Assembly: GCF_037392515.1 (NCBI RefSeq)
Contig: NC_090292.1
Coordinates: forward strand, 46,551,747-46,615,746
Direction of reading: 5' to 3'
DNA length: 64,000 bases
Origin: Haliotis asinina
Taxonomy: Eukaryota; Mollusca; Gastropoda; Lepetellida; Haliotidae
Shown: in pieces, positions 32,415 through 64,000 of the stretch
Numbering within the stretch: the first letter of the stretch is position 1
How the letters are laid out: each line of letters starts with the position of its first letter
Program-made: the position numbers and the translations under genes
Notes under the pieces: model-generated
Told to the model about the DNA's origin: nothing
Seen by the model: the letters and a program-made list of their open reading frames with translations, nothing else
Database searches by the model: none

Positions 32415-33122
32415 TTACACAAGTTGTGCCCCTACTTTGTCCATAACAACATCATTGAACAATGTGAATAGTCTGACATAGGCAGCCCGCGTACGATTTG
32501 GCAACAGTGCATGCACACATGGATGCATATCCCCACTCACTATACAGTGGATGACGTACAACTGGTCCCATACGACTGGTGCAACACAGAGAGTTCCATC
32601 CATATACGACTTGTCAGCACGGTGGAGCATGCTTAGCATGTTCTCTGATGCAAAAGTCAGTATTTCGTTGTTGTCACCATCATCGGTGCGCAGGAATAAC
32701 CCTCTATCATTTATCAGAGTCCATGGTCCTTCGAAGTGAACTTCAGCCAGAGGCTTAGGTAGGTTTGGCAGGGGGTAGAGGGAGGACTTTACATTCGAAA
32801 AGGGTCCTTCAGATGCTGGATGATCAGCCTTGGACAACTCTTCGTCGTACAGCTGCCGAATGGATGTGACGTACTCCTGTACGCGCTGGCGGAGTCTGAT
32901 AAGGAGTGGAACCTCATCTTCCGATTCCATTAGAACATGGTTGTGTGGTGTTGTTGATTTCACGAAGTCTCCACTTGTAGAACAGTGGCATACAGAATGT
33001 ACACACATCCAATGTGTTGTGGTCAGTCGTCTGACGTTGAGGTGATATGGGCACCCATCATAAAAAACTTGCTGTCCTCCTGCTTGAGAGGTGATGAATT
33101 CAAAGTGCTGGACATTTGCCAT
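32415..33122 (-). CDS. FLYWCH zinc finger plus truncated MULE transposase-like ORF
   Basis: Open frame of 235 residues. Residues 7-65 fit a FLYWCH-type zinc finger (HWMCVHSVCHC...PHNH). Residues 68-100 form the linker VPLLIRLRQRVQEYVTSIRQ that usually follows. From about 155 the frame reads SYMDGTLCVAPVVWDQLYVI, the start of a MULE transposase core with the first catalytic Asp. The frame stops soon after VVMDK, so most of the core is missing. It could be a cut-off Mutator-like element or a small FLYWCH gene derived from one. No terminal repeats were found. Confidence 0.65.
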   Translation of the reverse strand: MANVQHFEFITSQAGGQQVFYDGCPYHLNVRRLTTTHWMCVHSVCHCSTSGDFVKSTTPHNHVLMESEDEVPLLIRLRQRVQEYVTSIRQLYDEELSKADHPASEGPFSNVKSSLYPLPNLPKPLAEVHFEGPWTLINDRGLFLRTDDGDNNEILTFASENMLSMLHRADKSYMDGTLCVAPVVWDQLYVIHCIVSGDMHPCVHALLPNRTRAAYVRLFTLFNDVVMDKVGAQLV

Positions 33123-33544
33123 TTTCTGATGGATGCAGTTTATCCCTTTGTAATTTATTAGGAGTTTAATTAACGGAGAAGGTGAGATCTTCTCGACACG
33201 TTAGTCCTTACCATGTTTAAGACAAAATCTGACAAAGACAGACAAAGCATGTGACAACATAACTTCCGTAAGAGGCATTTACAACTCTCCTCGTTGTTCT
33301 ACACAGTTTGATTATTGAATGGAATTGAGCTAATCCTGCTCTGGTGATAACAGCATGAACGTGTTACCTGCTTGCCAAAACAAAATAAAACAATATCATC
33401 GTACATGTCGTACACGACGCACCCCTTCTTCATTGATAACTAGGCTGTTACATCATTCTACAGGGCAAATAAAAATCATTTCCCACTCTGCCTACTATAC
33501 TTTGGGTGGCAGTTCGGAACTGTAGGCAGTATGGGATCTAACCT

Positions 33545-36740: not shown

Positions 36741-36829
36741 CTGTCAAAAGGGACAGAATATTGTTATTGCTATTATTATTAAGAAAATCCTCATACGAGC
36801 ATACGCTGAACGCCAAACCAAACGTCACT

Positions 36830-37010
36830 CTCCATCTTATCAAGAAAAATTTTCAGAGGCATTAGTTTGCAAGAAAGCTGAAAAACACAGCTTCTGGATA
36901 TCATGGAAAAAACTCTCCAATACATTCATTTTTATGTGAAATGCATCGTTTTCAGAAGAGTTAAATTGTCCTATTTTCGACCATGCCGAAATACCTCATA
37001 ACAGTGAGTG
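36830..37010. repeat. Block D3, copy 1
   Basis: AAACGTCACTCTCCATCTTA ... GAAATGCATCGTTTTCAGAA ... TTTTCGACCATGCCGAAAT. Other copies are at 38590-38790 and 50770-50995. Confidence 0.8.
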
Positions 37011-37029
37011 AGTTAATATTTAATCGTGC

Positions 37030-37122
37030 TTACGTGTTGAAGTGTAGAACGTCGCATCTGTAGCCTCTGTCAAGAGCTAGCATTGCTATCATATCCTCCT
37101 CATTGAGCTTGAAATCAAATAT
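37030..37122 (-). CDS. Duplicate AKR exon 9' (distal copy, stop)
   Basis: 93 nt with acceptor TTTCAG|ATA and stop TAA at 37032-37030. It codes [20 protein letters not shown] and YRCDVLHFNT. The first 23 codons nearly equal exon 9. The last eight codons differ at 10 of 24 bases and 7 of 8 residues from the proximal copy. Confidence 0.85.
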   Translation of the reverse strand: MFDFKLNEEDMIAMLALDRGYRCDVLHFNT

Positions 37123-37208
37123 CTGAAACAAGTACGGTTGATACGTTAAACCGACGTGGAAAGAGTGTGTTCATTTCAAATGCACTGAGGGACACATTTC
37201 GCTAGAAT

Positions 37209-37383
37209 GTGTATATTTAGTTTTAGGACAAAGTGATCAACTGCATGAACATCGATCTGCGTAATGGGGAACCGATGACATGTGTCAACCAAGTCAGCGA
37301 GCCTGACCAACCGATCCCATTAGTCGCCTCTTACGACAAGCATAGTTGCCCTTTGTGGCAAGCATGGATGCTGAAGGGACTAT
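37209..37383 (-). repeat. SINE-A truncated copy with 16-bp target duplication
   Basis: CACATTTCGCTAGAAT (37193-37208) and CACATTTCGCTGGAAT (37384-37399) flank it. The paralogous locus near 49340 has a single TATTTCGCTGGAATTT and no SINE. It lies between AKR exons 9' and 8'. Confidence 0.85.
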
Positions 37384-37557
37384 CACATTTCGCTGGAATT
37401 TCAATATCTGAATTCTCATTTTTCAGTGTCGGAAAGAAACCACTTTAGTTGTCTGTCTTGTGTTTTCGTGCAAACACCAGGGCCATGACAGGCATAAAAC
37501 ACAAAACCACATGCTCCTCGTTGAATTGTTACATAGTGACATAGAACAAACACTCAC

Positions 37558-37641
37558 ATCCACGTTTTGGGCCAAACGAGAAGGATTCGTACTCTTGGGA
37601 ATCAAAACCAACCCTCTCTGTATGCCCCATCTGAGGATCAC
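37558..37641 (-). CDS. Duplicate AKR exon 8' (distal copy)
   Basis: 84 nt, same length and phase as the exon at 49440-49523, with acceptor GCATCAG|GTG and donor GAT|GTGAGT intact. It codes [19 protein letters not shown] and PSRLAQNVD. It keeps the canonical PKS lysine. It differs from the proximal copy at 11 of 84 bases, 7 of them changing residues. No AKR exons 1-7 were found between it and 49 kb. It is either an alternative terminal cassette of the gene starting at 57148 or a relic of a duplicated gene. Confidence 0.85.
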
Positions 37642-37799
37642 CTGATGCACACGTGAAAATTTGGGGTTAAAGGAAATAACTGTGAGCATCAAGAGTACAT
37701 TGTGAATAGTACCATATGTCAAGGAACAGTCGTATATGGTAAACATCATGTCTTTAAAGACCAGTATCATATCGTAAAAAAACGTATCTGTTTCAGAAA

Positions 37800-38025
37800 G
37801 TGAGCAAGTGAGTTTCGTTTTATGCCGCACTCAGCAATATTCCTGCTTTATGGCGGCAGTCTGTAAATAATCGAGTCTGGACCAGACAATCCAGTCATCA
37901 ACAGCATTAGCATCAATCGATACAAGTGGGGACCGATGACTTGGTTGGCCACTTGATCCCGTTAGTCGCCTGTTATGACAAGCATGGGCTGCAGAAGACT
38001 AGTTGTAACCCGTCTCTTGACGGGT
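37800..38025 (-). repeat. SINE-A copy shared with the 49.7 kb paralogue
   Basis: GTGAGCAAGTGAGTTTCGTT to CTTGACGGGT. The same copy with the same decay is at 49690-49932, so it predates the duplication. Its CCCGTCTCTTGACGGG end is the seed of the 49-bp array that follows. Confidence 0.88.
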
Positions 38026-38302
38026 GCATGTAACTTTTGACAGATATCATATTGTTGCCCGTCTCTTGACGGGTGCATGAAACTTTTGACAGATATCATA
38101 TTGTGACCCGTCTCTGGACGGGTGCATGTAACTTTTGACAGATATCATATTGTGACCCGTCTCTTGACGGGTGCATGTAACGTTTGACAGATGTCATATT
38201 GTAACCCGTCTCTTGACGGGTGCATGTAACTTTTGACAGATATCATATTGTAACCCGTCTCTTTATGGGTGCATGTAACTTTTGACAGATATCATATTGT
38301 AA
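38009..38302. repeat. 49-bp tandem array with hairpin core, six copies
   Basis: Units start at 38009, 38058, 38107, 38156, 38205 and 38254. Each holds CCCGTCTCTTGACGGG, able to form a 6-bp stem, plus GTGCATGTAACTTTTGACAG. The 49.9 kb paralogue has one unit. Confidence 0.93.
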
Positions 38303-38589
38303 ATAACATATAAGCTACGACCAATATTACATTGTGATCAACATGATATCTTTATCGCATCTTTACAAAATATCCGATTAGAAGAGATATATCATAATAT
38401 TTAAGGGCTAAACAGTACTTTATTACACTATACATAGGGGTAGAGAGAACTCTAATTCTTGCATCTATACATCATTGCTCCACTATCACCTGCAGTCGCA
38501 GGCTAATTGATACCAACTGGTTTGAGATTCTTCCTCCGAAGGCATTCATATATGAAACACATGTCCGTTAATAACTACAACCCACGACA

Positions 38590-38790
38590 TACACTGAACG
38601 CTAAACGAAACGTCACTCTCCATCTTTTCAAGAAAACAATTCAGAGGCATCAGTTTGCAAGAAAGCTGAAAAACACAGCTTTCTGGATGTCACGGAAACA
38701 AATCTCAATTACATTCATTTTTATGTGAAATGCATCGTTTTCAGAAGAGTTAAATTGTCCTATTTTCGACCACGCCGAAATGACCTCATA
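38590..38790. repeat. Block D3, copy 2
   Basis: Nearly the same as copy 1, followed by the SINE-D start as in copy 1. Confidence 0.8.
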
Positions 38791-38796
38791 ACTGTG

Positions 38797-39165
38797 AGTG
38801 AGTTAATATTTAACGTCACATCGGCAATATCTCAGCCACATCTCGTGACGAGAACATTTAATGCTGAAATGAAATATATGTTTACCATAAAAACCTGTCG
38901 ACGAAGGACAGTAACACAACTAGAATATCACAATTTGAATTAAAACTAGCTTGGAAAGTTAAAACTAATATTAATATTCGGACAATACAATATAAAAAGG
39001 CTATAGATTGCCACCAACTGAAGGTAGTTCACCACACTAGGGACCATGAGGACTTACAGTACCTTAGGTAGCTTGCATGGACCCTAGTTTGATTTACACC
39101 ATCCCTTCAGCTGCTGGCGAGTGTACAAAATGCTAGCCAAAATCTTCATTGTTGACAACAGTAGT
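38797..39165. repeat. SINE-D-like repeat, copy 1
   Basis: Starts GTGAGTGAGTTAATATTTAA, then CGTCACATCGGCAATATCTC. It later contains CAACTGAAGGTAG...TGCATGGACCCTAGTTTGAT...CCCTTCAGCTGCTGGCGA. A second copy is at 48267-48480. A start-only fragment is at 37003-37022. Confidence 0.65.
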
Positions 39166-39465
39166 TTTAATTGCAATTTAAACGTGAAAATTGTGCGGAT
39201 TTGCATTTGCATTTAAGAGAATATAATCGACAAACCACTTTCCACATACAGAAGAAATCATTGCCAAAGCCGAGTCGACTGTACACATGTGACTATGTCA
39301 TGAGAAGATATTTATTTCAGCAGTATTAAAACTGAATGATGGATCTGAACCAGACAATCCAGTGATTGTCACCATTTGATAGGATGGCAGAGCATGTTTA
39401 TATGAATCACTATGAAGAAGTGATCGTACTAGGTGTTTAGGCGTTCCTTAAGTGAGGAGAAAATA

Positions 39466-39542
39466 TGAAACAATATGAAATATGAAACAATATGAAATAT
39501 GAAACAATATGAAATATGAAACAATATGAAATATGAAACACA
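39466..39542. repeat. 17-bp tandem array
   Basis: AAACAATATGAAATATG repeated about four times. The paralogue at 57940 has one copy. Confidence 0.9.
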
Positions 39543-39769
39543 AACAACACAAGTACTTTTGACACGTGGATAATCGGCCCGGGTGGAGTCACCTGTGCCT
39601 TGATGAGGTGTAACAAACAACATATAGCACTGATGTACAAATACACCAAGATGGCGCTCACGTGTATCGCATCATCCTCTAACACTACCGGGCCTTCATG
39701 CAGTAGATGTGTGTCCACCGTTCACATAACATAACAATATCAATTGCACAGACCAGCGTAAAATATAGT

Positions 39770-39975
39770 TACCGAAGCCAACAACCAGTTTGTCAGGCGT
39801 CCACTCAATCGATGACAGGTCCAGGACAGAACTCACACATTTGTGACTGACGACAAACTTGCGCCCTTTACAAAAGATCACGGTGACCTTGACATTCTTG
39901 ATAACACAGAAATTTTTCAGGCATGCTAAGTCAACAATAATCCCGGCTGTATTGTAATCAGACGGATCATCCTCC
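39770..39975 (-). pseudogene. Possible exon relic, WD-like peptide, in D1
   Basis: The open minus-strand frame reads VVSHKCVSSVLDLSSIEWTP then DKLVVGFG, followed by GTAACT. The paralogue at 58195-58340 has stops but a canonical GTAAGT at the same point. The peptide faintly recalls a WD-repeat blade. I cannot name a gene. Confidence 0.3.
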
Positions 39976-40019
39976 CATTAGAGAAGGGAGTAATATTTTT
40001 CTTAAATCCAAGATGAATA

Positions 40020-40050
40020 ATAGTGTGTGTGTGTGTGTATGCGTGCGTTC

Positions 40051-40120
<70 letters not shown>

Positions 40121-40200
40121 AGAGAGAGAGAGAATTAGAGGGGAGAGAGAGATATAGATAGATATATGGATAGATAGAAAGACAGATAGATAAATGGACA
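40020..40200. repeat. Compound GT / TA / GA microsatellite
   Basis: (GT)n, about 30 TA units, then (GA)n and GATA-like steps. The corresponding (shorter TA, longer GA) microsatellite is at 58441-58590 in the paralogous block. Confidence 0.92.
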
Positions 40201-42168
40201 CACGAGATCGAAGGTGTCATTAATAATGTCTGTATTTCAAATATTCTAATTTATATGTTTACAATATATGCTGGTATGTAATACAGTGGTTTAAAACAGT
40301 TAATCAAGTTTGAACCTGGCAAGGAAATTAGAAACACCTGTGGTAGACGAGGACTCATCTCGCTCTCTGGTACTCTTATAGAGGAACGTTGAACCTTGAG
40401 AAAAGAGTTCCTTCAAGAAACATCTCCAACGGTCAAGCCTATCCTGGTCATGTAAACAACCATGACCTGATATCTTCAGTCATAACTAAATCTTATTTCT
40501 TTGTACTGCATGGTATATGAGCATTCCGAATATTTATATATATATCATAAACCAATGTTAAAGTTTCCAGAGCGGACAGGACCCTTTGTTCAAACTGACC
40601 AGGTTCTCAAAAATGTTGCTAAACCATGTTTTCAAAGTCTTCTCAAGTACTACGTAGTCCTGTTATATTTAATTATAGAGGAATCCGTATTCCGACTTAG
40701 AATTACGTTTTTATTAATAAGCAAGCCTCCCTCTAGTAGCAAGCATGCCAGCGATCAGAGCCTGCCTGAGTAACATATCACGAAACACATAAGTGATTCA
40801 ACGTAACAATCAGTGCTGATTAACACCACTTTAACTAACCCGCGAGTGGCCCTGGTCACTGGTCACCTGTCATTGATCACTTCAGATATCTTTGTTGTTT
40901 AACGCAACTCAGCAATATTGCAGGTGTGTGACAGCAAGAGAGATGCAAACCATTTCAATTTTATCGTAATTATTACGATTTTGCAGGTACAATTACGCTA
41001 TTACGCACACATAGTCGGTAATTACGGTTTTGCAATGGTTTTTGTATTTTCTAAATTAACTGAATTTCATCGGAGGCGAATTCCCTTTACACGGGGTTAC
41101 TAAATCTAAATATCCAATGAAAACTGTGCATTCAAAGGCATAGTGTTAAAGTACAAGGTAGTGGATGAAAGGAAGAATTTGATTGGTCGTTCGCTTTCTC
41201 GCTTGAAATAGAAAGTGACCTTACTTGGTCTGACACCGGTTTGACACCTGGGCTCGTTACATTGTGTTGTTACGCAAATATCATAAACCATGGTTATGGA
41301 CTGGGAGTTGCGCCATTTTGCTGACAACGAAATCGTTCCGATGTCACCGAAACTAGTAGCAGTAAATCAGATCAAACTTCTTGTTGCACAAAAACTCAAG
41401 AAAGACTACAGAGTCGACTCTGGATGCTTAATCGACTATGTATGCATTCTGTAGTCTCTGCCATACGGACTTCTCGATTTCACCCATTGGCCATAACAAC
41501 TGTAAGAAGACACGTGTGGATCAGAAACTATTTGGATTAAATATTTGCAATCAAATAAGTCATTATCAACATTCTCAAACCTGACCATAACGATCTTGTA
41601 ACCAGTGTAACGAAAGCTGAAGTACTGTTTCCTCAGTATTTAATTGACCATATTTTGTCAACTGCTGCTGCTGACCTCGCCGAACATTTGTTAAGGAAAT
41701 GTTACCAGATTCAGATATCGTTTCAAAGTACGATTGTGGGAGAAGCAAGACAACTGTTACTGTTAAACTCTTGCGGAGGAGAAAACTACTTTGATTTCTG
41801 GTGTCTATCGTTCTGAGCTGACTTAATAGTACGAGGCAATACATTTGTGTTTGACAGATCCATCTTCACTGCAGGCTTACCGCATTAGTTACACATTAGT
41901 TACGCTTTGAGGTAAGGAGCCCTGCTCTATGAAATGCCCTTATATCATCATTCTCTTCCCACAGTGGTTACTTGTCACATCTTCCTACGTAACATCGCTA
42001 AACGGGACGATGCAAGGATGTACACCGGTACACAGATGATACAAAGTTACGAAAATAATACAAGTGCAACTGTTTCTTTGTTTTCTACATGTTATTTGTC
42101 AACAGCTAGCAAATTCGTTTTGTTATGTCAGCTTCGCGAGCCTCATTTAGATTCACTCTTTGTCTTGG

Positions 42169-42175
42169 TACCCCC

Positions 42176-42206
<31 letters not shown>

Positions 42207-42219
42207 ACACACACACACA
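42169..42219. repeat. Poly-C followed by CA microsatellite
   Basis: About 22 C residues then about 14 CA units. This is a likely assembly-sensitive site. Confidence 0.92.
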
Positions 42220-43865
42220 AATGCCAAATCGTCAATAAATTCATCTCAAACTTCAAGAAACAAAATATGCAAGAAAGATTGCGTGTGCTTGAGACTAGCA
42301 CGAGTCCGCTAGAATCAAACTTAGATATTAAAGTGCATAAAATTGTTAAAGTGACTGTGGTTGGTTGAAAAACATGATCAAATGGTATTAGATTCCAGGA
42401 AACCGCAAGACTATTCACTGCGTATTGACACGTAAACAATTGTTTTGTTGTGTCATCAACAGTGGTGACGTCATTCAAATCAATTTTTCATTTGAAACCT
42501 CCGGCTAACGCCGTCGGTTCCAAATGCATTCCCGTGCTTCAAATACTCAATAACACTCGGAAATTGGCCAACACATGATGCTTATCTCCTAATTCACACA
42601 TAATGCCAAGTGTTCGAATTAAATACTGAATGGCCATAAAAAATGTCAGCTGTCAAGTGTATTCAATTTGTACATTGGAATAGCACCTCATCGCAGGACG
42701 TGCCCACTGTTGCAGATAATTCTCGGCTGTACATGTTATACCTTACTTCCTCAGTTACACCGATCTGCAATTCACCTAAATGTGACACCAATAAGTCCCA
42801 AACCCAGTCAAACTAAATATCCCACTCTCCGACACGGAGTCACCACGTACACCAGATCGCAATAGATGATATTTTGTGAGCTCTTACATTGATAGGCATT
42901 ACCCGACCACTCAGAAATTGTCAGAACAGACAGTTGGAAAGGAAGTTTGATTGTCCGAACTACGAGCGTCTGCACACACATGCTGGATTATGTCACTTTT
43001 TCACGTTCTGTCGTGTGTTAATTACTTCCTCAAAGTTCTTTTTTTATTGAAGGGTGGATGAATTTTGTCAAGCGGAAGCCGACGTATTAACAAATGTGAT
43101 TTATTTCTACAATTTTCACTTCTTTTTTTTTCACAAACAACAGCGGTCGTAAATATTGCGATACCACAAATATCACATAATGTTTCGCTCATTTGGCGAG
43201 CTGGGTAGGTCAGCAATGTGATTTTTTTCTGAAGTGTTTCTTTTGAGTGCAATGGAGACTTGACTTGGCATGTGGTTTCTTTTCACGAACACCGGAAATC
43301 ATCACCTCTGATACAGATTCCTAGATAAGTGCCAGTGACGTAGTATCGTTTGTTGGATTCCGTCTTCTGTAGAAATTCCTGTAGATGGTTTGTCACAGGC
43401 AACTTTGCTTGACGAGCTGATGATGCCACAGAGACGTTTCTAGTGCCTTAAGTGAATATGTATGGGTTGTTGAACTCTTGAACGATCTATATCTTCGTGA
43501 GTTTTAAATGTCTTGGTTGCAGGCAATACTAATCTCACCTTTTTACCCACGTTCACTGTCAGAATCAGTTGATTTTCGTTAGCAATTATTTCAGTTATAA
43601 AACATTTACTAGTATTCATTTTTGCCGTTGAAAAACTTAAACAATTATTTAATCAGTAATATTGTTTTTACTTATAGACAGAGTTAAAATTCTTTTAGTT
43701 GAAATGGCTGTGATAAAGTCGGTAAGACTTCGTCAGATTTCCTTGAGGTTAAACTGAAATCCAGCCACGAACCAGCTGGGCAGACGCGATACCCTGGAGC
43801 AGGCAAGCCTTTTACATTCATCCATACATACGCGGGTGCGTGTATTTAGATATTTAGTTGTGTAG

Positions 43866-43945
43866 GTCTTTGCTGATCACCGGATCATCTGGGTCAAGCG
43901 CGATGAATAACTGACCCCTGTCATACAGCTGCAATATTGCTCAAA
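43866..43945 (+). repeat. SINE-A 3' fragment
   Basis: GCTGATCACCGGATCATCTG and CATACAGCTGCAATATTGCT match the SINE-A second half. Confidence 0.65.
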
Positions 43946-45079
43946 ATCACCCTGTAATTCTTCATGTTTTACTTAACACTGTGTGAACTTTGATTGTAAA
44001 CTTATTTTCAACAAAGGGAGTATACTAGAACCCCAACAAGATGTCGTTGTCTGTGCAGTGATGAAGTTACGACCCAATATATTCTTTGAAATAATCCAAA
44101 GCTGTTTTTCCTGTATTTAAAATACATTTTAATATCCAGTGTTATAAGTTTGCCTGATTTCCTGTTTTGGACAGTAGCGAAAGAATATCCGATGAACGAC
44201 AAACGAACTTGAAATAGTAATCCGTGCTGAATATGTTAAAATCAATATATCAACGTCTACACAATATAACTGAAATGCACAGTGATCAAAGTCTTTATCA
44301 TGGTCATAAGTCAACATAAAAATAAAATTTGCTTTGGGGCCTCAGCTTACCCTGCAACACAAAACAAATTTCTCTTGCGTCAGATGTAGATGAGTAGGAC
44401 GCGACGAATGTGGATGACACAAGCACTGTCAATAATAACAGGGTTGGATCTTGGGCGAAAAAAATGAAATGGATACTTGCAATAGATGCAGCGATGTGTC
44501 TCTGTAAACACTAACACAGTTATCAAGCAAGTAATACACAACATTTAGCACAAGTAAAATACATAAATGAACGATATTTGAGTTTATAGGCTGATGTTCA
44601 ATATGACTACAATGTAGGTAGTTGTGATGATAGATAATAGATTTGAGCCCGAAAGGACATGGAACCATTTTGCCTAATTGTATCTTAGAATGTTTATACG
44701 TCAAATCCAAGCATTAAAGGGCACACAAATCGCTACATTATTACATAAATCTGTTCGTGCCTTACATTCATTATTCGTTCTAATTATGTAACATAATGGC
44801 ATGGTCGAGTTCGACACAACTATTATTATGCTCAACACGTGTCAATTCTACACTGATGACGATCACACGGATATCAGGAAGAACTGTTGCAGGCAATACT
44901 GTGATTGTCTGGCTGTTTGATCAGTGCTGTTCAAGTTCACTTCTCGAAGGGATAGAAGGGATGATCTTTAAATCTGAAACATAGGAACAATGACGGTTCT
45001 TTGGACGGAAGTATGTGCAACGTTCAACGTCGGATTATGTCATGATTCCACCATGATATACCCATTTTGCAAACGATTG

Positions 45080-46472
<1,393 letters not shown>

Positions 46473-46944
46473 TATATACATATATATATTATGAGTATGG
46501 TGAATTTAACTGTTTTAAGAGGATCTGTTAGAGATGTCCTCTGAAGTGCCGGAAATGCCCCGTCAGATTTGCGTCCCTTGGACATGCGTAGGGTTTCACC
46601 AAAATAGCGAGCATCTGAGACTAGCACCATGAATATGTGTATTAATCCTAACCCGATACACCGTTACATATTATTTTTATTCCCGTAGACATGATACGGA
46701 GGGTTCCTTTTCCCATCGGATAGTTATTCTACATTAGATGAAAACTTAAAATAAATTGAAACAATTAAACAAAAATAAATTTTAAAAAACCGAAAAGAAA
46801 AAAGAAAGATAGAAAAGGAGTAAAAAAACAGACAATTGAAAATAACCTAAATAATTAAGTAGTTCATTGAAAAAATAAATAAACATCATTCATTCAGACT
46901 TTCATACCCATGCATACATGCCTACAAGTAAGCAAGTCATATAA

Positions 46945-48050
46945 TTTCAGTAGCAGAATTAGATCAAGAGTTTCATCCATCCGAAGGGTGGGAGGGCAAC
47001 CAATAATTATCACATCAACCTGAAGGTTTATAATACTGGTTTGTGAACAGTTTTGCTCAGTCCCTCGGGACATGTTTTTTACATTCCAAAAAAGATGTAT
47101 GGGTTCAGGCTTTGAACCACAAAATATGCACAGATAACTCTCGACTGTATGCATTTTAATCAAGTATATACTGACTGCGGGAATTGCTCCCATCTTAATT
47201 TAGCATCATGACTGGTTTTAAAGGGTTTTATGAAGATATTAGTCCAGTTTATATTTATGAAAGTCTCACTTCCTATTTTTCAATAGTTGTCAATATTTCT
47301 TCTCTTTCATTTTTGAAATAATAGTTGGTTCATCCTTCTTTTACATGAAATTAAATTTTGTATAATTATGTTTGTAAAACTATTAAGTATCACATTTGAG
47401 CTATTTTCAATACCAGCTGATGTGAGGTATTTACTAATGGCCTTAACAATTCCATGAAACTCTTGAAATTTTATCCTGTAAAATTTATGACAACTTTGTT
47501 CAAGTGTCATCATTCACTAAATATTTCCTGTAAAACGATTTGGTATATTTTCATATATTTGGCAAATGCCTGCAGAGTAATTTTCCACCAAATAATGAGG
47601 GGTTCAAATATTGTGGAATATTGTCTATCAACAGGTTTTTGCACTTTCTTTAATAATCGAAATGAAGTTATTTCCTAATTCATGTTACTTTCAATGTATC
47701 AACATAGGCACATTGATCAAATATTCACAATCCTCCCTCAGCAACTGCATTTCAAATAACTGTTCTTTTAATTTCATCCGGTTTGTTATCCCCAAGAAAA
47801 CCATATTAAAACTTTTTAAGAAACTCGTCGGATGGGTTGGGCAGAATAAGAAACAGGACATTTAGTTTGGAAATAAGCAATGGCTTCATAATAGCAACTT
47901 TTCCCATTGGAGGTATGGTTCTTTTCATCCATCGTTTAATTATTTCTTCAATTTCATAAATCTTACTTTCTCAGTTTAATCATTTTGTTAACATGGACCG
48001 AAAAGATTATACACCAAATCCTAAAACTTTCTGGGTTCCAACTCAGGTTT
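46945..48050 (-). mobile_element. LINE fragment, C-terminal part of reverse transcriptase ORF
   Basis: On the minus strand, scattered frames read FRIWCIIFSVHVNKMIKL, EIEEIIKRWMKRTIPPMGKV, ILPNPSDEFLKK, NKPDEIKRT, AEGGL and then INWTNIFIKPFKTSHDAKLR, followed by CIFCGSKPEPIHLFWN. This order (thumb, EGGL motif, FKT...W, terminal Cys knuckle) is that of non-LTR retrotransposon ORF2 C-termini. It has many stops and frame changes and no 5' part. The exact clade is not determined. Confidence 0.75.
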
Positions 48051-48266
48051 AGGTGTGATCTGACTTTATAATATATCATTACTATTTTCGCAACTTCCTA
48101 TCCCCGCAACTTCTGATTTAAGTCGAGAAAATTGTGAATATAAATCAAATATGTCAATGACCCATTCCAAAATGTCTTGGAAACACGGCAACATTGTTTC
48201 ACGTAACATCACTCCAAATGAAATCATGCAGATCCTTAGCAATATTCCCATGGGCAAGCGGAGAGA

Positions 48267-48480
48267 TTCACGTCACATCGGCAATATTTCAGCCATATCG
48301 TGATGAGAGCGATAAGTTTCAAAGCTACATATTAATTAATGGCACATTATATCGCCAGCAACTGAAGGTAGATCACCATACTAAGGACAATGGGGACATA
48401 CAGTGCTTTTGCTACTTGCATGGACCCTAGTTGGATTTACATCATCCCTTCAGCCGCTGGCGATTGTACAAAATGCTAGC
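48267..48480. repeat. SINE-D-like repeat, copy 2
   Basis: CGTCACATCGGCAATATTTC, CAACTGAAGGTAGATCACCA, TGCATGGACCCTAGTTGGAT and CCCTTCAGCCGCTGGCGATT, in the same order as copy 1 but shorter. Confidence 0.65.
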
Positions 48481-48831
48481 CGAAATTAAAACAACAAGAA
48501 TACTACGATTAAAAAACTGGTAGACTTAAATTTACTGTGAATATTTTTGGACTTGCGTACCCTCTCAGGACAATAATTTTACAATACTTCAACCTCCTTT
48601 GAGGGTACACGGTAACATTGTTTCATGTAGCATCACTCCAAATCAAATCATGCAGATCATTAGCAATATTCGGTGAGTTTCACGAGTAACGAGTGATTGA
48701 GAGTAGAGTTGCATCACCAAGACATTTATGCACCATAACCCAAAACATCGTAACATATTGTTTCAAGTAGCGTCAAAGCAAACCAAATGATGCTGATATT
48801 TAGCGATATTCTAGAAATATCACAAAGGAAA

Positions 48832-49036
48832 GTGATGTAGTGGTTCGCATACTGGCCTCTAATGTCAAATGCCCGTGTTCGAATATCGGGGGACACACCA
48901 CGAATTTGTGGCCTGGGTGTAATACTATGTTGTGTCCCTGGGCAAGGCACTTCAATGACATTGCCCTGCCTCCAACCAGCTGTTTACAGTGGGTACCGGA
49001 TGTATCGGCCCATGTGGTCGCGCATAGAGCTCAGTA
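48832..49036 (+). repeat. SINE-C copy, tRNA head with GGGCAAGGCACTT central domain
   Basis: Head GTGATGTAGTGGTTCGCATA (box A-like) and GTGTTCGAATATC (box B-like), then GTCCCTGGGCAAGGCACTTC, CAGCTGTTTACAGTGGGTAC. The central domain resembles one shared by SINEs of many animal phyla; I believe it is the MetaSINE type but cannot check. It lies just after the AKR gene end. Confidence 0.75.
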
Positions 49037-49151
49037 ACAGATCTGAAAGAATGATTTCGTTGGGGTAATGATGTAACGCCAGACAGAAGCATCGCGTTGG
49101 ATTCTATCGAGACAATCCTCATTCGAACATAATCTAGTTTTATAATCGTGC

Positions 49152-49244
49152 TTACGCGCTCAAGAGTAGGGAGTTGATTCTGTAGCCTCTGTCAAGAGCT
49201 AGCATTGCCTTCATGTCCTCCTCACTGAGCTTGAAATCAAATAT
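49152..49244 (-). CDS. AKR exon 9, proximal copy (residues 271-300, stop)
   Basis: Acceptor TTTCAG|ATA, stop TAA at 49154-49152. It codes [20 protein letters not shown] and [10 protein letters not shown]. The last eight residues form the variable C-terminal tail. Confidence 0.92.
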   Translation of the reverse strand: MFDFKLSEEDMKAMLALDRGYRINSLLLSA

Positions 49245-52200
49245 CTGAAACAAGTACAATTGATACGTTAAACCAACGTGGAAAGCGTGAGTTCATTTGA
49301 GGGAGACTTCCGGATCCTGGATCTTCACTGTTATATTTCGCTGGAATTTCAGTGAATCTGATTTGAATCTCAGACACAGAACACAAAACCACATGCTCCT
49401 CGTTGAATTGTTACATAGGTACAAAGAATAAACACTCACATCCATGTTCTGGGCCAAATGAGATGGGTTCTTACTCATGGGAACCAAAGCAAAACCTCTC
49501 TGTATGCCCCATCTGAGGATCACCTGATGCACACGAGAAAGTTTGCGTTAAAGGAAATAACAATGATATAAGATAAGCATCAAGAGTACATTGTGAATAG
49601 TACCATATGTCAAGGAACAGTCGTATATGGTAAACATCATGTCTTTAAAGACCAGTATCATATCGTAAAAAACGTATCTGTTTCAGAAAGTGAGCAAGTG
49701 AGTTTCGTTTCATGCCGCACTCAGCAATATTCCTGCTTTATGGCGGCAGTCTGTAAATAATCGAGTCTGGACCAGACAATCCAATCATCAACAGCATTAG
49801 CATCAATCCATACAAGTGGGGACCGATGACGTGTCAACCAAGTCATCGAGCCTGGCCACTTGATCCCGTTAGTCGCCTGTTATGACAAGCATGGGCTGCA
49901 GAAGACTAGTTGTAACCCGTCTCTTGACGGGTGCATGTAACGTTTGACAAATATCATATTAAAAATAGCATATAAGCTACGACCAATATTACATTGTGAT
50001 CAACATGTTATCCTTATCGCATCTTTACAAAATATCCGATTAGAAGAAATATATCATAATATTTAAGGGCTAAACAGTACTTTATTACACTATATACATA
50101 GTTAGAAAGATAAGCATCAAGAGGACATTATGAACAATAACATATGTCGTATATGGTAAACAACATATCTTTTATAGAGATATCATATCGTAAATAGCAT
50201 ATCTGTTTGGCTGAGTGACTTTAGTTTACAACGCACTCAGCTTTATGGCCGCGGTGTGTAAATAATCGATTCTGGACCATACAATCCAGTGATCAACAAC
50301 ATGGGCATCTCCACAACTGGGAATCGATAAATCTGCCAAGTTATCGCGCCTGGCCACTTGATCCCGTTAGTCGCCTTTTACGACACGCATGGGCTGCTGG
50401 AGATCAGTTCTAACCCGGATCTTCAAAGGTACATATCTGTTTGGACAGACATCACATCTTCAGTAACATATGAGCTAGGGTCAGTATTGCATTGTAATCT
50501 AAATATTATCTGTTTGGACAAGTATCACATCTTTAAAAAATATCCAATTAGAGGAACATATCATTGTTTGGGCTTTAACCATAATACGTAAGAACAAAGC
50601 AGTACTTTATTAAACTATACAGGGATAGGATCTCTACTTCTTAAATATATATGCCATTGTACTATTATCACCTGCAGTCTCAGGCTAATCGATACAAATT
50701 CTTTCTTTTAAAGCATGCATACATGAAACACCTGTCTTTTGTGTCTGCCATACTTCAATCCATGACATATACCGAACGCCCAAAACAAACGTTACCGTCC
50801 TAACTTTATGAATTACTTAAAAACTTTCAAATACTAGTATATGTCAGAAGGCATTAGTTTATAAGAAAGCTGAACACAGCTTTATGGACGTCACGAAGAG
50901 CAATCTCAGCTGTATTCCTTTTTATGTGCAATGCTTCGTTTTCAGAAGTGTTACACTGTCCTATTTTCGACCATGCTGGAATGAATCAATAACAGTGAAT
51001 CAGATGTCCAAAAGAAACGCTGGCATACAATTCTGCTTTGAGACAAAGATAAACCATTTAAAGTCACTATTGCTCAACTACAATGGACACCTGCTGAAGA
51101 ATTCCATGATTTCCGTCATTTCTAACATTTTCTGTTGCTTTGCACAGGTAAAACAGTTAAAACGTGTCTTTGATGTTGTGAAAAGTGTTTAGGAACATCT
51201 AAGATTATATTTTTTTTAACATTTTTGCTTACAAATAAACATTTTTCCTTTTGTTGTTTACACTTAGCAATATCAGTCCCCAATACGAGAGTGTAAAATT
51301 GTTAAGCAATCATTCCTATGATTTCAATCTTTTAAAAACATTTTCTGCTGATTTGCATCAATGAAAAGAAGTAAAACGTGTCTTTCCTATTGTGAAATAG
51401 TGTTTAGGAACATTAGAATTTTCCTTAACAATTTTGCTTGCTTGGCAACATTTTTCCCATTTTCGGTTAACTTACAACAATATTCAAGCAGTATTTGCAC
51501 CCATCTCATGTATAGAATGATTGTATGGGGTATAAAGAGAGACTAGAATACATGATATGATATACAAGTACGGGAAATATGCCACGATTAACACCTGAAA
51601 GAGAGAAAGTGCCATTTGGAGGATACAGACAGGGTCGGCATACAATGGTGTTACCACCGCATCACAGTTGCAAGACTTACTCAGCGCCTAAGAGAGACTG
51701 GGGTCACCATAGACACTTCTAGAAGTGGACACCCATGCATCACAGCGCCATCTGAAGATAGGTACCTCCGTCATTACGGAAGGAGGGTAACGTGTTTTCT
51801 TTTTTCTTTTCTGTTGTTGTTTTTGTTTTGTTTTTGTTTTATAGGGGTTTTTTTGTTTTGTTTTTTTTACGTGTAGTGTACATGCATGTCACTGAGTTAG
51901 ACTATCAGAGTTATCAGTTAGTTCCAAGCAATGATATAATTAAAATTTAAGAATATGTGACTCTTTACACATTGTTTATATAACAGTATACCTGAGCTGA
52001 AGACTTGTTGTATTTCTTTCCGATTTCCACAATGGTCGGGTCTTCTAGGATCTTTGGAGCATCCTTGGGTATGCTGAAATACATAAACATAAGACACATC
52101 TATGGGACTCCCGTGAGGGCTAGGTGTAGCAAATAATCGTAATATAATCGTGGTATCGTCTGAAATCCACATTTCTTTACCTGTTCGCAAATTAATGTGC

Positions 52201-55200
52201 CCGGCAAAATATATTGTACCTATGAATGGGACCTCCCCATCATACAACACCACAAACTATAAAAATACGTCATAATACTCTTTTACGTAATTTTGTTAGC
52301 TTAGCTTAGGGTAGGTTAGGTTAGGTTAGGGTAACCCTAATGTCCTGACAAGAAGTTGTGGTGCTGTTTTCTAAAGGTGTTCCCTGGTGTGTTACGGTTA
52401 CGAATTTGCTGTGACAAAAGGTGTAAGAAATCCCATGTGAACCATGAAAACAGACCAAAGACAGGTCTAAAACATTCAGATGTTGTATTCTTAAGCAAGA
52501 GGGCAAATCATACAAAGTCACAAGTCAACTTCACAATGTCGATTTCCAGTACAATACAAATAGGACAAAATCTAAGGCAATGGGTCACAAAATATATAGT
52601 AAACTCACCAAAGTCATAATGCGAGAGAGAAACAGTTATGCAGAATGTAACACAGCAAAGAGTCTGACAGAGGCTAGGAAGCTGAAGCGTTGGCAGCCAT
52701 TGATGATTGTGTATGCCCCAGTTATGTGTGAATGTGTCTGTCTCCAACACAACTAGCATTCATATATACTTTCAGTCATTTCCCGAAAGTTCGAGCACTT
52801 ACGGCCATCGCCAACACCATAGAGAGATCTAGAACGAGTCTTAGGGAGGTAACTCTAAAGTACTGCCTTAGAGGCGTACCGCTTAAAGAATTTTCCGTAG
52901 GAAATATGACCCATAATAGAACACTAATATTGTGACCCAATTGCAACTACAGTAATAATTATTAATAACAAGTCAAACCATGGAAAATACACTCTCGTAA
53001 CAGATGTGTTTCCGACGTTCGCCGGAAGGGTTTTGTGACACTGACATAGAACACTATATCTTTTTTAGTATGAGAGATCTACAGCAAGTCTTAGTGGTCT
53101 CGTGTGGTTGTTTAGTCAAAGGCAGGTAACTCTAACTCAACTTACTAGTTATGCCACGGGGCCCCGAAGGATCCGTAGCCAGTAATTGAAATGCCGGTTT
53201 TGAGGGAGAACTGGAGAAGGTCTTCCTGGGCCAAATATGGAGTCATCTCCACCTAAAACACACAAGTCAAGTGGATTTGTCACGATGCTTTAAACAGCAT
53301 TCTACTCATAGTACCATGTGCCTTGGGTGAAATCCTGATGTGATGCCGTCTCAGGTGATTAGCATTTTGGTGAACCACACGAGATCGGGGTATATTAAAA
53401 ACATTAAAAGAGATTCCATTTGGTCATATTCATATATATTAAATGCATGAAAAGATATACTATGTGTTCATGTTTTACAAATGATATCTACTTGGTTATT
53501 CGCTGGCTTGTACTTGAGGCCGTCCATTTTGAGAATCCTCTCCACCTGTTCTTTATTGAAATTGGAGACGCCGATAGACCTGACAAGACCTTTGTCCACC
53601 AGCTTCTCCATGGCCTGTTGGGGAGGAGAGTGTTATGAAATCCTTTAACATGAATGTTCATAACAGAATTCATTATTTTACTCGACATTTTTTTCTAAAG
53701 CTGTTTCGTTCTCGCTCAACATCCAATGCAATTATCTCAATATCTGCAACAATGAAACCTCTTCCTTTTCATTGTGCTTTTTTACATCATATCAAAGAAG
53801 TCTTTGCAAGGCCAATATATAGTTAAAACTACAGAACAGGTTCCAAAATTATACTTATACTTTCATCATCAGTGACGGTTGGATGAAATGTCGCTCATTG
53901 ATTCTATTTATTGTATTTACTATGTTCATTTTTTTTCTCAGCCTGTAACTTTGCAATCAATGTACGTGTCACCTGATGGGATAATGCATAGGGGAGTTAT
54001 ACTGGAAGCTACTTACTCTCCACGTGTCTAGATAGTCTATCATATTCGGCGTTGTCACCTCCACGTCCTGGGGAAACACAGACATGAACAGATAATGTAA
54101 TTTAAAATAATAAATAATATCAGTTATTGAGTATAATGTATACTCTTTGGGGAGAGACTAGAGACATTCTAGATGTAGTTTGCTAAGACATATGGGCAAT
54201 GTACACACACTCTTAACACCATATAGTATGTGCCTTTGATACAGCGTTATGCAGGAAACAAAGTAACTAACTCCTCTTAGTTAGTGCAAAATTATTTCCT
54301 AAAACATTTATAAATCAATAATTTGATATGAGATTAGATGATAGCAGCTGAAGGCAGGAGGCAGAAGCATTTTTTACTCACTTCGAAAGCCATAGGAAAG
54401 TGGATTTGATACAGATCGATATAATCCGTGCTCAGGGCCTCCAGTGACAGTCGACACGCTGGTTCTACCTGATCTGGTTCGCGAAAGTGAACCCAAAGCT
54501 GAAATGATAACAAGGGTCACTAATCCATTTAACGTTGTCTTGGAAGAGATTTGCCATTATGGCACAATGTGACGGCCTAAGACGTTGCCATACCCTCAAA
54601 CAAATTTATTTTCAAAATTGAAAAGAAAGACACCAGAGGCAAACTATACGGCAACGATCCAAATGACGATTCTTTTAAAACGGCAGGCGTAGATCAATCG
54701 CTTTTGGCATGACAGTTTGCCTGAATTGAAGCTGGGCACCAAAGACAAGCATTGATGAATATGGGCACACACGTCTAAAATTGTTCAGTGGCACGTCATG
54801 TTAATGGCATGGCCAAACCTGCTCACAGAAAAATCAGTTATCTGATAACGTCACGTACAATATGCCGTTCTGTTTTTTCGGTTTGTTTTTATCAGTTCTT
54901 GCCTATTGCCTCTGTAGATCATGGATCATGTCCCAGAGATGGGCTACAGGATGTGTCTAGATAGGGTGCAGTTCATAGGAAAACGTTGACGTTCTAGGCA
55001 GCAAGACTGCGTTGTCGAGGCAGCTGACGAAGCCATTTGTGTAACGCTAAGCGGCCAGGTGCATGTTAACGATAAGCAGCGGTGTTAGCTCCTGTCCTCA
55101 AATCCCTCTTCTACTTTGGCCACTCGCGTTCTCTGGGCGTCAGTCATTGCGGTATACTGCTGTCTTTGTTTTGTTTACCGACCGTTGTCGCATACAAGGA

Positions 55201-57148
55201 GCAGCACTGCGCCGCAACAGGCAAATGTGCCGTCCGATTTTCTGCCAAATTTTGTGAATAGCAGGTGCTACCAATAGGGCAGTGAATACTTACACTTTTC
55301 TCAAAGACACGCTGTCATCATTGATTTTCACTGGTCCATATATATACTAAATCGTAAATGACATCGACAGGTTTTAATTCGCTCTATGGTCTATTTGGGT
55401 GAAAATGATCCAAAAGGGTTTATGATCAAATATTCATTTGAACGCAGAATGTAATGAAAACATCAGACCAGCTGTGGGTAAACATGCACACCCATACTTG
55501 TTGACCCCGAATCTGACGAGGTGTCACAGTGTCATGTGCCAGTCTTCCTACCTTCGTCACAATGAACAGCTCCTCCCTCTTTATTTTCCCTTCTTGGATT
55601 AGTTCTTTAACGGCGGCACCAATTTCCGATTCCGTTTCAAAGCTCCAGGCTGTGTCAATCTTGCGATATCCCATCTGTATTGCAGCCTTCACGACATCAC
55701 CCATCTCGTTTGGCTGTTGGGGCAAAATATATTGATATTCTACATACATGCTTCATGATTGGAGCTGTGCAGTGTTGCCACTGTTTATTGTGTCATGATT
55801 CGTGTATTCAAATTCCAGATTTCCCAAATTATGATCCATTGTTTGTCAATATCTTAACATGTTTTGACCAAAATGGTGAACCAGTGCCACCTTAATCATC
55901 TCCAACAAAATACAGCGAATATGCCGTGTCAACTGAATGCTGCATAAAGCCTTATTGCTCTGACTCTTGAAGATCCGGGTTAGAATCGGTCTTCAGGAAC
56001 TCCTGCTTGTCGTATGTGGCGACTAGCGGGTTTGGTTGGTCAAACTCGCTGACATGGATGACACATGCATCCCAGATCGATGCTTAGACTGTTGATTGTT
56101 TGGTCCAGACCTCCCCAATAGCTTTAACATTGCTGAGTGCTACGTTAAGCAACCAACCAACCAAAGCGACCAACACACGAGCGTTCATGATCTTTCATGC
56201 ACGCAGGAAACAATTTTTTAAACAATACAGGCAATAACACTAATACTCACCCCTCAGCAATAGTATTCTGACCTGTAACGGTAGGCCTAGGGAGGGTGTA
56301 TGATCATTACACACAACGCTGGTAACTTGGGATTAGGGTTATCAGCTGGGCTAATATTAATCCACGTTGTTAGCGCACTGAACATGTGCCTTGTATATTC
56401 CGTTTGGCTTCAAAGCGGACCGATGAATTGCAATCTAACTCGAAAACTATTAAACATAGCATACTCAGTGGACCGCTGATCGTCATCAAAACATCTGCCA
56501 ACTCTGTGAGGTTTTGGAGAATTTTGTCCTAAACATAAAAAATGTTCTTTAACAAGCTACCATTAACATACTGATGCAGTTCAGGAGGAGTGCAGAGAAA
56601 GAGACAGCCAGCTGTTCATGATTTGTATTTTTGACATTAACCCTTCCCTGCACCCCTGGCTGTTTTCGAGTTATGCTGCAATTCATCGGATCACTTTTGA
56701 GCCAAACAGACCAGAATTTAAAAAAAAAGCTTATTATTTGGGTGGCGGTGTGCAGTTCGGTGCATTGAACCCAGGACACAATTCATTTGAAATTAAGTAA
56801 CCAACATTCTTTTCACCCAGCAGAAAACGGCTCGAACTATGCTCAGTTATAGTTTACAAATTTGTGTTAATCGCATCAAAGGTAAATAAAGGTTCACCGC
56901 TAGACAAAATACACAAACCAGTCAGCTGGTTGTTTATTTAAGGTTTATTGGCCAAGCACACTTTCTGCTCAGTCCGGATTATTACGTTATTATACGTATT
57001 GTGCGTTATATACAGATTCCGAATTGGACAGTGTGCACTGTATGTATATATTCCAACTACCAACCTTCAAACTGTTGTAGGTCCCTAAGCCAAGCATAGG
57101 CATGTCATAACCGCTGTTCAGACGTGTGGAAGGTACTTTGTCCGCCAT
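49152..57148 (-). CDS. Aldo-keto reductase, nine exons, 300 aa, altered active site
   Basis: AKRs are cytosolic TIM-barrel enzymes that use NAD(P)H to reduce aldehydes and ketones. The exons, 5' to 3', are 57148-57065, 55713-55552, 54498-54382, 54067-54017, 53614-53492, 53252-53146, 52073-51992, 49523-49440 and 49244-49152. All junctions have AG/GT signals and the frames fit, giving 300 residues. Family marks are [84 protein letters not shown] and ALDRGYR. Catalytic Asp48, Lys82 and His115 are present, but the catalytic Tyr is Phe53. The cofactor-site PKS motif reads PMS (Met258). Activity may therefore be changed or lost. It resembles the AKR1-type branch. Abalone are known to have an AKR (HdRed, 371 aa) reducing alginate-derived DEH, but I have no evidence that this shorter gene is related to it. 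Exons 8-9 are duplicated at 37 kb. Confidence 0.93.
49440..49523 (-). CDS. AKR exon 8, proximal copy (residues 243-270)
   Basis: Acceptor CATCAG|GTG, donor GAT|GTGAGT. It codes [19 protein letters not shown] and PSHLAQNMD. Met258 stands where the family has the cofactor-contacting Lys of PKS. Confidence 0.92.
49690..49932 (-). repeat. SINE-A copy shared with the 37.8 kb paralogue
   Basis: Same junctions as the copy at 37800. It keeps the GACGTGTCAACCAAGTCATC segment that is deleted there. Confidence 0.88.
50211..50430 (-). repeat. SINE-A diverged copy in AKR intron
   Basis: TGACTTTAGTTTACAACGCA through CGGATCTTCAAAGGT, with short internal deletions. Confidence 0.8.
50770..50995. repeat. Block D3, copy 3
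   Basis: More diverged copy between AKR exons 7 and 8. It keeps CAATGCTTCGTTTTCAGAAG and CCTATTTTCGACCATGCTGG. Confidence 0.75.
51575..51795 (+). mobile_element. Tc1-like transposase N-terminal fragment
   Basis: It begins MPRLTPERE at 51579 and, after a frame change, reads [20 protein letters not shown], then [11 protein letters not shown]. This is the DNA-binding half of a Tc1-like transposase of the same type as the 31.5 kb fragment. It lies in the AKR intron between exons 7 and 8 and is followed by a T-rich stretch. No catalytic domain remains. Confidence 0.75.
51992..52073 (-). CDS. AKR exon 7 (residues 215-242)
   Basis: Acceptor ATTTCAG|C, donor CAG|GTATAC. The first base completes Tyr215, then [20 protein letters not shown] and YNKSSAQ follow. 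It ends in phase 0, compatible with either exon 8 (49523) or the duplicate (37641). Confidence 0.92.
52306..52340. repeat. Short interstitial telomere-like repeat
   Basis: AGGTTAGGTTAGGTTAGGGT followed by AACCCTAA, in the AKR intron before exon 7. Telomeric TTAGGG-type units are read on both strands around one point. Confidence 0.6.
53146..53252 (-). CDS. AKR exon 6 (residues 180-214 plus two bases)
   Basis: Acceptor TTTTAG|GTG, donor TA|GTAAGT (phase 2). It codes [15 protein letters not shown] and [16 protein letters not shown], the strand with the usual YSPLG/YGSLG cofactor segment. Without splicing the frame would stop at TAG right at the donor. Confidence 0.92.
53492..53614 (-). CDS. AKR exon 5 (residues 139-179)
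   Basis: Acceptor CCAACAG|GCC, donor CAA|GTAGAT, 41 codons. It contains the second AKR signature region, [20 protein letters not shown], and ends at KPANNQ. Confidence 0.93.
54017..54067 (-). CDS. AKR exon 4 (residues 122-138)
   Basis: Short 51-nt exon, acceptor CCCCAG|GAC, donor AGA|GTAAGT. It codes [17 protein letters not shown], the helix before the AMEKLVDKG segment. Confidence 0.9.
54382..54498 (-). CDS. AKR exon 3 (residues 83-121)
   Basis: Acceptor ATTTCAG|CTT, donor GAA|GTGAGT, 39 codons. LW follows the catalytic Lys, and [10 protein letters not shown] carries catalytic His115. Confidence 0.93.
55552..55713 (-). CDS. AKR exon 2 (residues 29-82), Tyr-to-Phe at the catalytic position
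   Basis: Acceptor CCAACAG|CCA, donor AAG|GTAGGA, 54 codons. It has catalytic Asp48 in YRKID and Lys82 at the end of ELFIVTK. Phe53 (codon TTT) sits five residues after Asp48, where AKRs normally have the proton-donor Tyr. Confidence 0.93.
55965..56165 (+). repeat. SINE-A copy with CCAA-type tail in AKR intron 1
   Basis: GAAGATCCGGGTTAGAATCG to GCTGAGTGCTACGTTAAGCA, then CCAACCAACCAA. It shares the tail type of the copy at 28041. Confidence 0.8.
57065..57148 (-). CDS. AKR exon 1 (residues 1-28)
   Basis: ATG at 57148-57146, donor AAG|GTTGGT. It codes the N-terminal beta hairpin and first strand, with [11 protein letters not shown] at residues 16-26. The start matches the normal AKR N-terminus. 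Confidence 0.92.
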
Positions 57149-57689
57149 GTTGAAACCGCCTTTTCAGCACCTTGGCACAAACATAACTTAAATCACTGGA
57201 TCTGTATTATTTAATGAATAACTAATGATCACAATTAAATTTAATACAAACAATATTTTTGTACAGCTACGATAGTGTTTGGTACATACTACTGCATAAA
57301 ACAGAAAGTAGAGCATAACTCACCTCCGATCGGTCACAGGTGCAGTGACTTGTCGATAAGCGCACACACAATGCATCCTAACTATTTAACCAACTGTATG
57401 ACGTAATTGACCTACATTTTCGTGTTATCCCCAAGACGACGCACGCTATCCTGCATATCACATGCACTGACGCCGTGCACACAGATTATGTGTGTTTGTT
57501 TAGTAATAGGGAGTGGAGCGAGCAGTTGAAGGAGGAACACTGACGTTCTTTGTATGCGACGATTATAATCCAGAGACGAACTGATTTTATATCAGCGATA
57601 AACACCATGTACTCTCAGTTCACGCTCCACTTTTGTGTGTCCCGGCAGAAAATCATCAGTTTGGGAAATATCGTAGTACTTTTCAGTGC

Positions 57690-58990
<1,301 letters not shown>

Positions 58991-58999
58991 AACTATCTG

Positions 59000-62410: not shown

Positions 62411-62690
62411 AGTGTCCATGTAAATCCGCGCATATACAAGAATATCAGTCAAGACAACATCATGAGTGATGGTGAGCAGTATATATGAGCGACACACCCC
62501 TCTATCATTTCCAAAACACGTTGTATCAACGTCTCTACATGTACCGAGCAACCACGTTGTACTGTTGAAAAACAGAAGCGAAGTAATCGTGACTCATCAC
62601 TTTTTTCAAAACGCGGCGATCCCAGTCGCATCCCCCTTTCGATACAAGACATGAGAAATAGCAAGCAACATAGCGCACTTACACGGTATA
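59956..62690. other. Interval before Tc1 copy 2, no gene recognised
   Basis: A 22-bp direct repeat (TTTGATCTGTAGGTCAAGAT) lies at 60163-60205 and a TG run at 62376. Otherwise AT-rich DNA with short frames. The 105-codon frame at 61569-61886 has no recognisable similarity. Confidence 0.45.
62376..62406. repeat. TG microsatellite
   Basis: (TG)n followed by CGCGCGCG. Confidence 0.85.
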
Positions 62691-63979: not shown

Positions 63980-64000
63980 TAAAAAGGGTAAGGTTATGCA

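Follow-up and report, generated by a model that had tools for sequence, protein, structure and literature searches.

Two kinds of described locus lie closest to the one reported here: genes with alternative 3' terminal exons, which carry two terminal exon sets in compatible phase, and partly deleted tandem duplicates, also called truncated unprocessed pseudogenes. The gene concerned is an aldo-keto reductase (AKR) gene. Asp43, Tyr48, Lys77 and His110 are given as the catalytic tetrad of AKRs in PMC6395642, and Lys262 and Arg268 of aldose reductase are described as NADP contacts in PMC5056380. PMC8778563 describes HdRed, an abalone reductase for alginate-derived DEH, as an AKR. Our literature search found no AKR work on the alternative splicing of a terminal exon.

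The stretch of DNA analyzed here, 64,000 nucleotides in full and called the window below, contains an intact AKR gene whose last two exons, E8 and E9, recur about 12 kb downstream as a second pair, E8' and E9'. We propose that E8' and E9' are very probably the remains of a neighboring AKR gene that has lost its first seven exons, and hence the kind of debris that gene duplication commonly leaves, not a new mechanism by which one gene makes two enzymes.

Results

The intact gene occupies positions 57148 to 49152 on the minus strand, where nine exons spliced together give a 300-aa open frame, with GT/AG splice signals throughout. E1 (57065-57148) begins with the ATG at 57148 and is followed by E2 (55552-55713), E3 (54382-54498), E4 (54017-54067), E5 (53492-53614), E6 (53146-53252, ending in phase 2), E7 (51992-52073, ending in phase 0), E8 (49440-49523) and E9 (49152-49244, stop included), all placed by exon joining. 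The product matches Pfam PF00248 (Aldo_ket_red; E 4e-50), a domain that assigns it to the AKR superfamily, and its best match among solved structures is aldose reductase (E 1.1e-82).

The second pair lies on the same strand and resembles the first closely in form. E8 (49523-49440) and E8' (37641-37558) are 84 nt each, with AG/GT signals and a shared phase, while E9 (49244-49152) and E9' (37122-37030) are 93 nt each counting the stop, which is TAA in both. The frame of E8'/E9' is open, with no internal stop, frameshift or splice loss. A first-pass annotation had reported these positions, lengths, phases, splice signals and stops, and had noted that E7, with its phase 0 end at 51992, could join either pair; frame and splice checks bore all of this out. 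The match in length is limited to the exons, as intron 8 is 195 nt and intron 8' 435 nt. Across the exons the pairs are 85.9% identical (25/177 nt differ), and part of intron 7 is 98.5% identical; on these figures the likeness is not a matter of chance.

Compatible phase and intact splice signals are what one would find in an alternative 3' terminal exon set, and the first-pass annotation had offered this as one of two readings, the other being a partly deleted duplicate. In the former, some transcripts of the intact gene would omit E8-E9 and have E7 joined instead to E8', 14 kb further on; the resulting reductase would regain its NADPH site and end in a different C-terminal loop. The annotation had also seen no second E1-E7, and this held up. 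In the window, a relaxed tblastn of the intact 300-aa protein gave no further AKR exon above chance (next match E 0.36), and in the 10 kb on either side the sole match was 20 aa long (E 0.66). Nor did a second set of E1-E7, which carry the catalytic residues and are essential to the product, show up elsewhere on contig C13: of the 127 genome matches listed, every one on C13 falls within the window, in a search that overlooked E9' and from which weaker distant exons may escape.

As a yardstick we used an array on contig C15 (10.72-10.97 Mb) with 12 AKR genes of this type among the matches listed. These matches include 12 each of E1, E2, E3, E5, E6 and E8, 11 of E7 and 7 of E9, at E <= 0.001 with 131/158 candidates scored; the search overlooked the window's E9' and the E8-E9 of a decayed remnant described below. 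We read 60 kb of the array in full and obtained the E8-E9 regions of all 12 genes. Phase, signals and lengths are alike in 12/12 pairs (E9 having 29 or 30 codons), and the structural match of E8'/E9' to E8/E9 is therefore the normal structure of the family. Recurrence among paralogs would support, without strictly defining, an alternative 3' terminal exon set, but no array gene has a second E8 among the matches listed (12 E1 and 12 E8 at E <= 0.001). What the array does contain, between g11 and g12, is a second AKR remnant (C15:10939854-10941492) consisting of E8, E9 and an E3 interrupted by an in-frame stop, with no other AKR exons at the cut-off used. By its content this is a partial gene, more decayed than the E8'/E9' copy. 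Strand or position makes its orphan E8-E9 unsuitable as a 3' end for g11 or g12, which also speaks against the cassette reading.

The surroundings of E8'/E9' point to a gene that was once longer. Immediately upstream, the copy retains the 3' part of intron 7 (37642-38448, minus strand), which includes a 49-bp tandem repeat. The good match to intron 7 extends to about 38448 and then drops to about 70%, partly repeat-based (38584-38816), within the stretch that holds the E1-E7 deletion (38449-39192). Beyond it, a block of about 1.3 kb (39193-40488, minus strand) aligns in the same order and strand with the 5' flank of the intact gene (57686-58995, minus strand) and ends about 0.5 kb short of the expected ATG. 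On the other side, a repeat has been inserted in the 3' UTR right after the stop (36795-37027; second instance at 38584-38816, 91.5%), an interruption that does not favor use of the pair as a cassette, and array-type 3' UTR picks up again at about 36803. Canonical polyadenylation signals are absent from most stretches inspected, that of the intact gene among them, and so are uninformative.

When searched against the genome (1.14 Gb), with array E1 positions taken from a separate exon search, the flank block was also found upstream of E1 and on the gene strand in at least 5 of the 12 array genes (g3, g4, g5, g6 and g7, among the matches listed). Its alignment with g4 is piecewise and ends 520 nt before the ATG, whereas the intact window gene, aligned with g4, carries on through E1. 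Query positions 1052-1270 of the block are a dispersed repeat as well, and two of the listed array matches have no adjoining known E1. We considered a mobile element and rejected it for most of the block's length, since its matches precede array genes and share their strand. Because the copy retains an AKR 5' flank in order and strand, it would represent an AKR gene with E1-E7 deleted, and not a mere 3' cassette, for which such a flank is superfluous. Of the two earlier readings, then, the partly deleted duplicate is strengthened by the retained flank; nothing found speaks positively for the cassette, and the features put forward in its favor occur in ordinary array paralogs.

Part of intron 7 appears younger than the exons beside it. 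Two of its blocks together show 5/335 differences and a third 10/185, while introns on the exon side differ at 16/161, compared to 25/177 for the exons (p 0.25). Selection pushing the exons faster than the introns was rejected, as the contrast between 25/177 and 5/335 is restricted to one intron 7 stretch. This stretch (49577-50110, minus strand) is 95-98.5% identical to the intron of the copy. The intact gene carries two versions of the segment in tandem, of which the older (50113-50640) is 76% alike and is the better fit for array gene g3 (80.7% vs 73.6%). Positions 49577-50110 probably derive from a recent exchange between the intact gene and the copy locus, which would account for the youthful appearance of intron 7.

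Exons and nearby introns of the copy diverge alike, yet its frames are open and its dN/dS resembles that of the array. For the window pair, dN is 0.148 and dS 0.205 with the C-terminal tail, and 0.101 and 0.202 without it; against the 12 array genes, E8'/E9' without the tail give dN/dS of 0.19-0.54, where the array median is 0.33 (66 pairs). Changes private to E8'/E9' are 2 nonsynonymous and 1 synonymous, vs 28 and 20 in the array (p 1.0). The open frame, array-like dN/dS and ordinary private changes together suggest that E8'/E9' were mostly under selection through their history, a constraint that would also suit a working cassette. In simulations with 0.1 or 0.2 indels per substitution, respectively, a freely drifting copy came through 3.5% change without any damage in 33% or 18% of runs, and through 6% change in 15% or 5%. 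Prolonged neutrality is thus unlikely, while intactness by itself decides nothing. On this evidence, either the loss of E1-E7 must be recent, or E8'/E9' must keep some use.

The exon differences are concentrated at the C-terminus, with 10/25 (share 0.40) in the last 24 sense bases of the window pair. Under an even spread this would be improbable (0.0003 at this location, 0.015 for a window of 24 bases anywhere), but it is typical of array pairs, where the median is 11 differences and the share 0.38 (45 pairs from the 10 genes with a 30-codon E9), and we rejected special selection on the cluster. Array tails differ at a mean of 0.63 of amino acids, vs 0.17 elsewhere. The first-pass annotation had named a differing C-terminal loop in connection with a cassette; strongly divergent tails also occur among ordinary array paralogs.

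As to the origin of the copy, a genome search with E8'-E9', most of intron 7 omitted, returned g9 as the longest match (76% over 655 nt). Next came g6 and g4, with 86% identity along about 295 nt, whereas two shorter segments matched in the intact gene, one of 212 nt (85%) and one of 156 nt (88%). E8'/E9' are as distant from E8/E9 as array paralogs are from one another, and a cassette newly copied from the intact gene's own end was rejected for that reason. A tree of 153 exon columns groups the copy with g9, at an unstarred branch (81/90), and no branch is starred in any tree built from exons or from intron edges. Sister placement of the two window exon pairs is not rejected (AU p 0.233), and the intact gene is the copy's nearest match in intron 7 (98.5%) and, by length among the matches listed, in the 5' flank. 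Duplication in place is therefore as possible as the joint arrival of two paralogs.

The comparison also brought out unusual residues in the intact gene. Its nearest solved relative is aldose reductase AKR1B (AKR family 1), with which it shares Asp43, Lys77 and His110; it differs in having Phe (residue 53, in E2, by structure alignment) in place of Tyr48, so that the tetrad is incomplete, and Met and His (in E8) in place of Lys262 and Arg268. Its homology to AKRs stands; ordinary AKR chemistry appears doubtful, and with Phe in place of Tyr48 the protein would be expected to reduce carbonyls poorly. At the two cofactor positions, Lys and Arg are found in 12/12 array genes and in E8' of the copy, and bacterial relatives have Lys in 13/14 and Arg in 12/14. 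The Tyr48 position is Tyr in 14/14 bacterial segments covering the site (13 loci) and in 11/12 array genes; the remaining array gene, g3, shares the Phe, while His occupies the position in an AKR locus of more distant kinship (C15:9.89 Mb). Our literature search did not find an AKR with Y48F. When E1-E7 of the intact gene (without E4) are compared with seven array genes (two without E1), dN/dS is 0.15-0.42, and thus the gene does not look to be dying. A Phe at the catalytic Tyr position, common to the intact gene and one array gene, is the more useful by-product of this work. HdRed, too, is an AKR, presumably from the same animal group.

Discussion

We suggest that two array-type AKR genes formerly stood head to tail on the minus strand, and that the upstream one survives as the intact gene. 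The downstream gene would have suffered a deletion that began about 0.5 kb ahead of the ATG and reached into intron 7, removing E1-E7. Spared by it were the 5' flank (40488-39193), the last part of intron 7, E8', E9' and a 3' UTR that was struck by a repeat insertion. The exchange of 0.5 kb between the introns 7 of the two loci seems to have come late. The remains are collinear, the exons are missing, and the gene structure is that of the whole family; the order of events and the disuse of the remnant are what we infer from them. That E8' and E9' are still open and spliceable could be explained by a fairly recent loss, and short coding stretches often remain open by chance for a while.

Splicing of E7 to E8' as a regular alternative end of the intact gene is, in our judgment, very unlikely. 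E8' does carry the Lys and Arg missing from E8, and aldose reductase aligns marginally better with the hypothetical E7-E8' product than with the direct one (285.6 vs 280.7 bits), but the exon pairs alone are near-equal on Pfam (23.1 for E8'E9', 23.7 for E8E9). We regard with similar skepticism the idea that the remnant is transcribed from its own retained 5' flank, giving a short or non-coding RNA, or a tail peptide after a further first exon. The upstream flank, E8', E9' and the splice signals are all kept, but with the flank ending about 0.5 kb before the expected ATG, the core promoter has probably been lost. A first exon did not turn up either, and E8-E9 make up only the last fifth of the protein. 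It is a little harder still to credit that the intact gene, lacking the Lys and Arg that grip the phosphate side of NADPH, borrows E8'-E9' from the relic through splicing, to yield a second protein that has a canonical cofactor site and another C-terminal loop. Were this so, a dead paralog would be providing a living gene with a functional cofactor site. Least credible is that a complete second gene lost E1-E7 in assembly: repeats near the gap (the 49-bp array and the shared intron stretch) might mislead an assembler, but outside the intron 7 stretch the divergence between the pieces is about 10% or more, and the junction itself contains several hundred nt of different sequence.

Unlike the known genes with alternative 3' terminal exons, then, this locus has a second exon set that is paralog-like and accompanied by a gene's 5' flank. 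As the remains of a partly deleted neighbor, E8'/E9' offer a clean, small example of how reductase arrays shed genes, with an internal deletion that left both ends in place. Homology to a gene, retained introns, and non-exonic flank carried along in preserved order are all features of truncated unprocessed pseudogenes, and the copy has them, together with the internal loss of exons and an adjoining intact paralog that mark partly deleted tandem duplicates. The copy is unlike such pseudogenes in that its remaining exons are still open and spliceable, and the same family holds a further remnant in the array on C15.

Repeats and other open frames in the window

Two Tc1-like elements, each with inverted ends and a transposase-like frame, lie at 45174-46476 and 62687-63981 in the same orientation and are 96.8% identical; the Pfam search of these frames covered the element at 45174-46476. 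A 49-bp unit is repeated in tandem 6.1 times at 38003-38302, as against about one copy in an intron of the intact aldo-keto reductase (AKR) gene, and every unit of the repeat contains a small CCCGTC/GACGGG palindrome. Elsewhere, a plus-strand open frame of 310 aa (11496-12428) matches the Talin IBS2B domain in Pfam (E 4e-10), and a minus-strand frame of 261 aa (32415-33200), which may be of transposon origin, has a weak FLYWCH zinc finger match under the Pfam cut-off.

A partial gene and possible further ones in the AKR array

The array of 12 AKR genes (g1-g12) on contig C15 of the same genome holds a second, decayed partial AKR between g11 and g12 (C15:10939854-10941492), comprising E3, which contains a stop, E8 and E9. 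Two pieces of AKR-type 5' flank, at C15:10757193-10757462 and C15:10801471-10801767, have no E1 close by among the matches listed, and are perhaps further deleted genes.

Catalytic and cofactor-site residues

The NADPH-site Lys and Arg are present in all 12 array genes and in the partial copy within the window; exon 8 of the intact gene (49440-49523) has Met and His at these positions. At a distant AKR locus on C15 (9886001-9896000), exon 8 lacks both Lys262 and Arg268, and the position of the catalytic Tyr48 is His. In exon 2 of the intact gene (55552-55713) that position is Phe, as it is in g3 (C15:10740943-10741305), the sole exception among the array genes, 11 of which have Tyr. The Phe-bearing intact gene and g3 possibly form a subgroup with altered chemistry; Tyr occupies the position in every bacterial AKR segment aligned over it (14 of 14).
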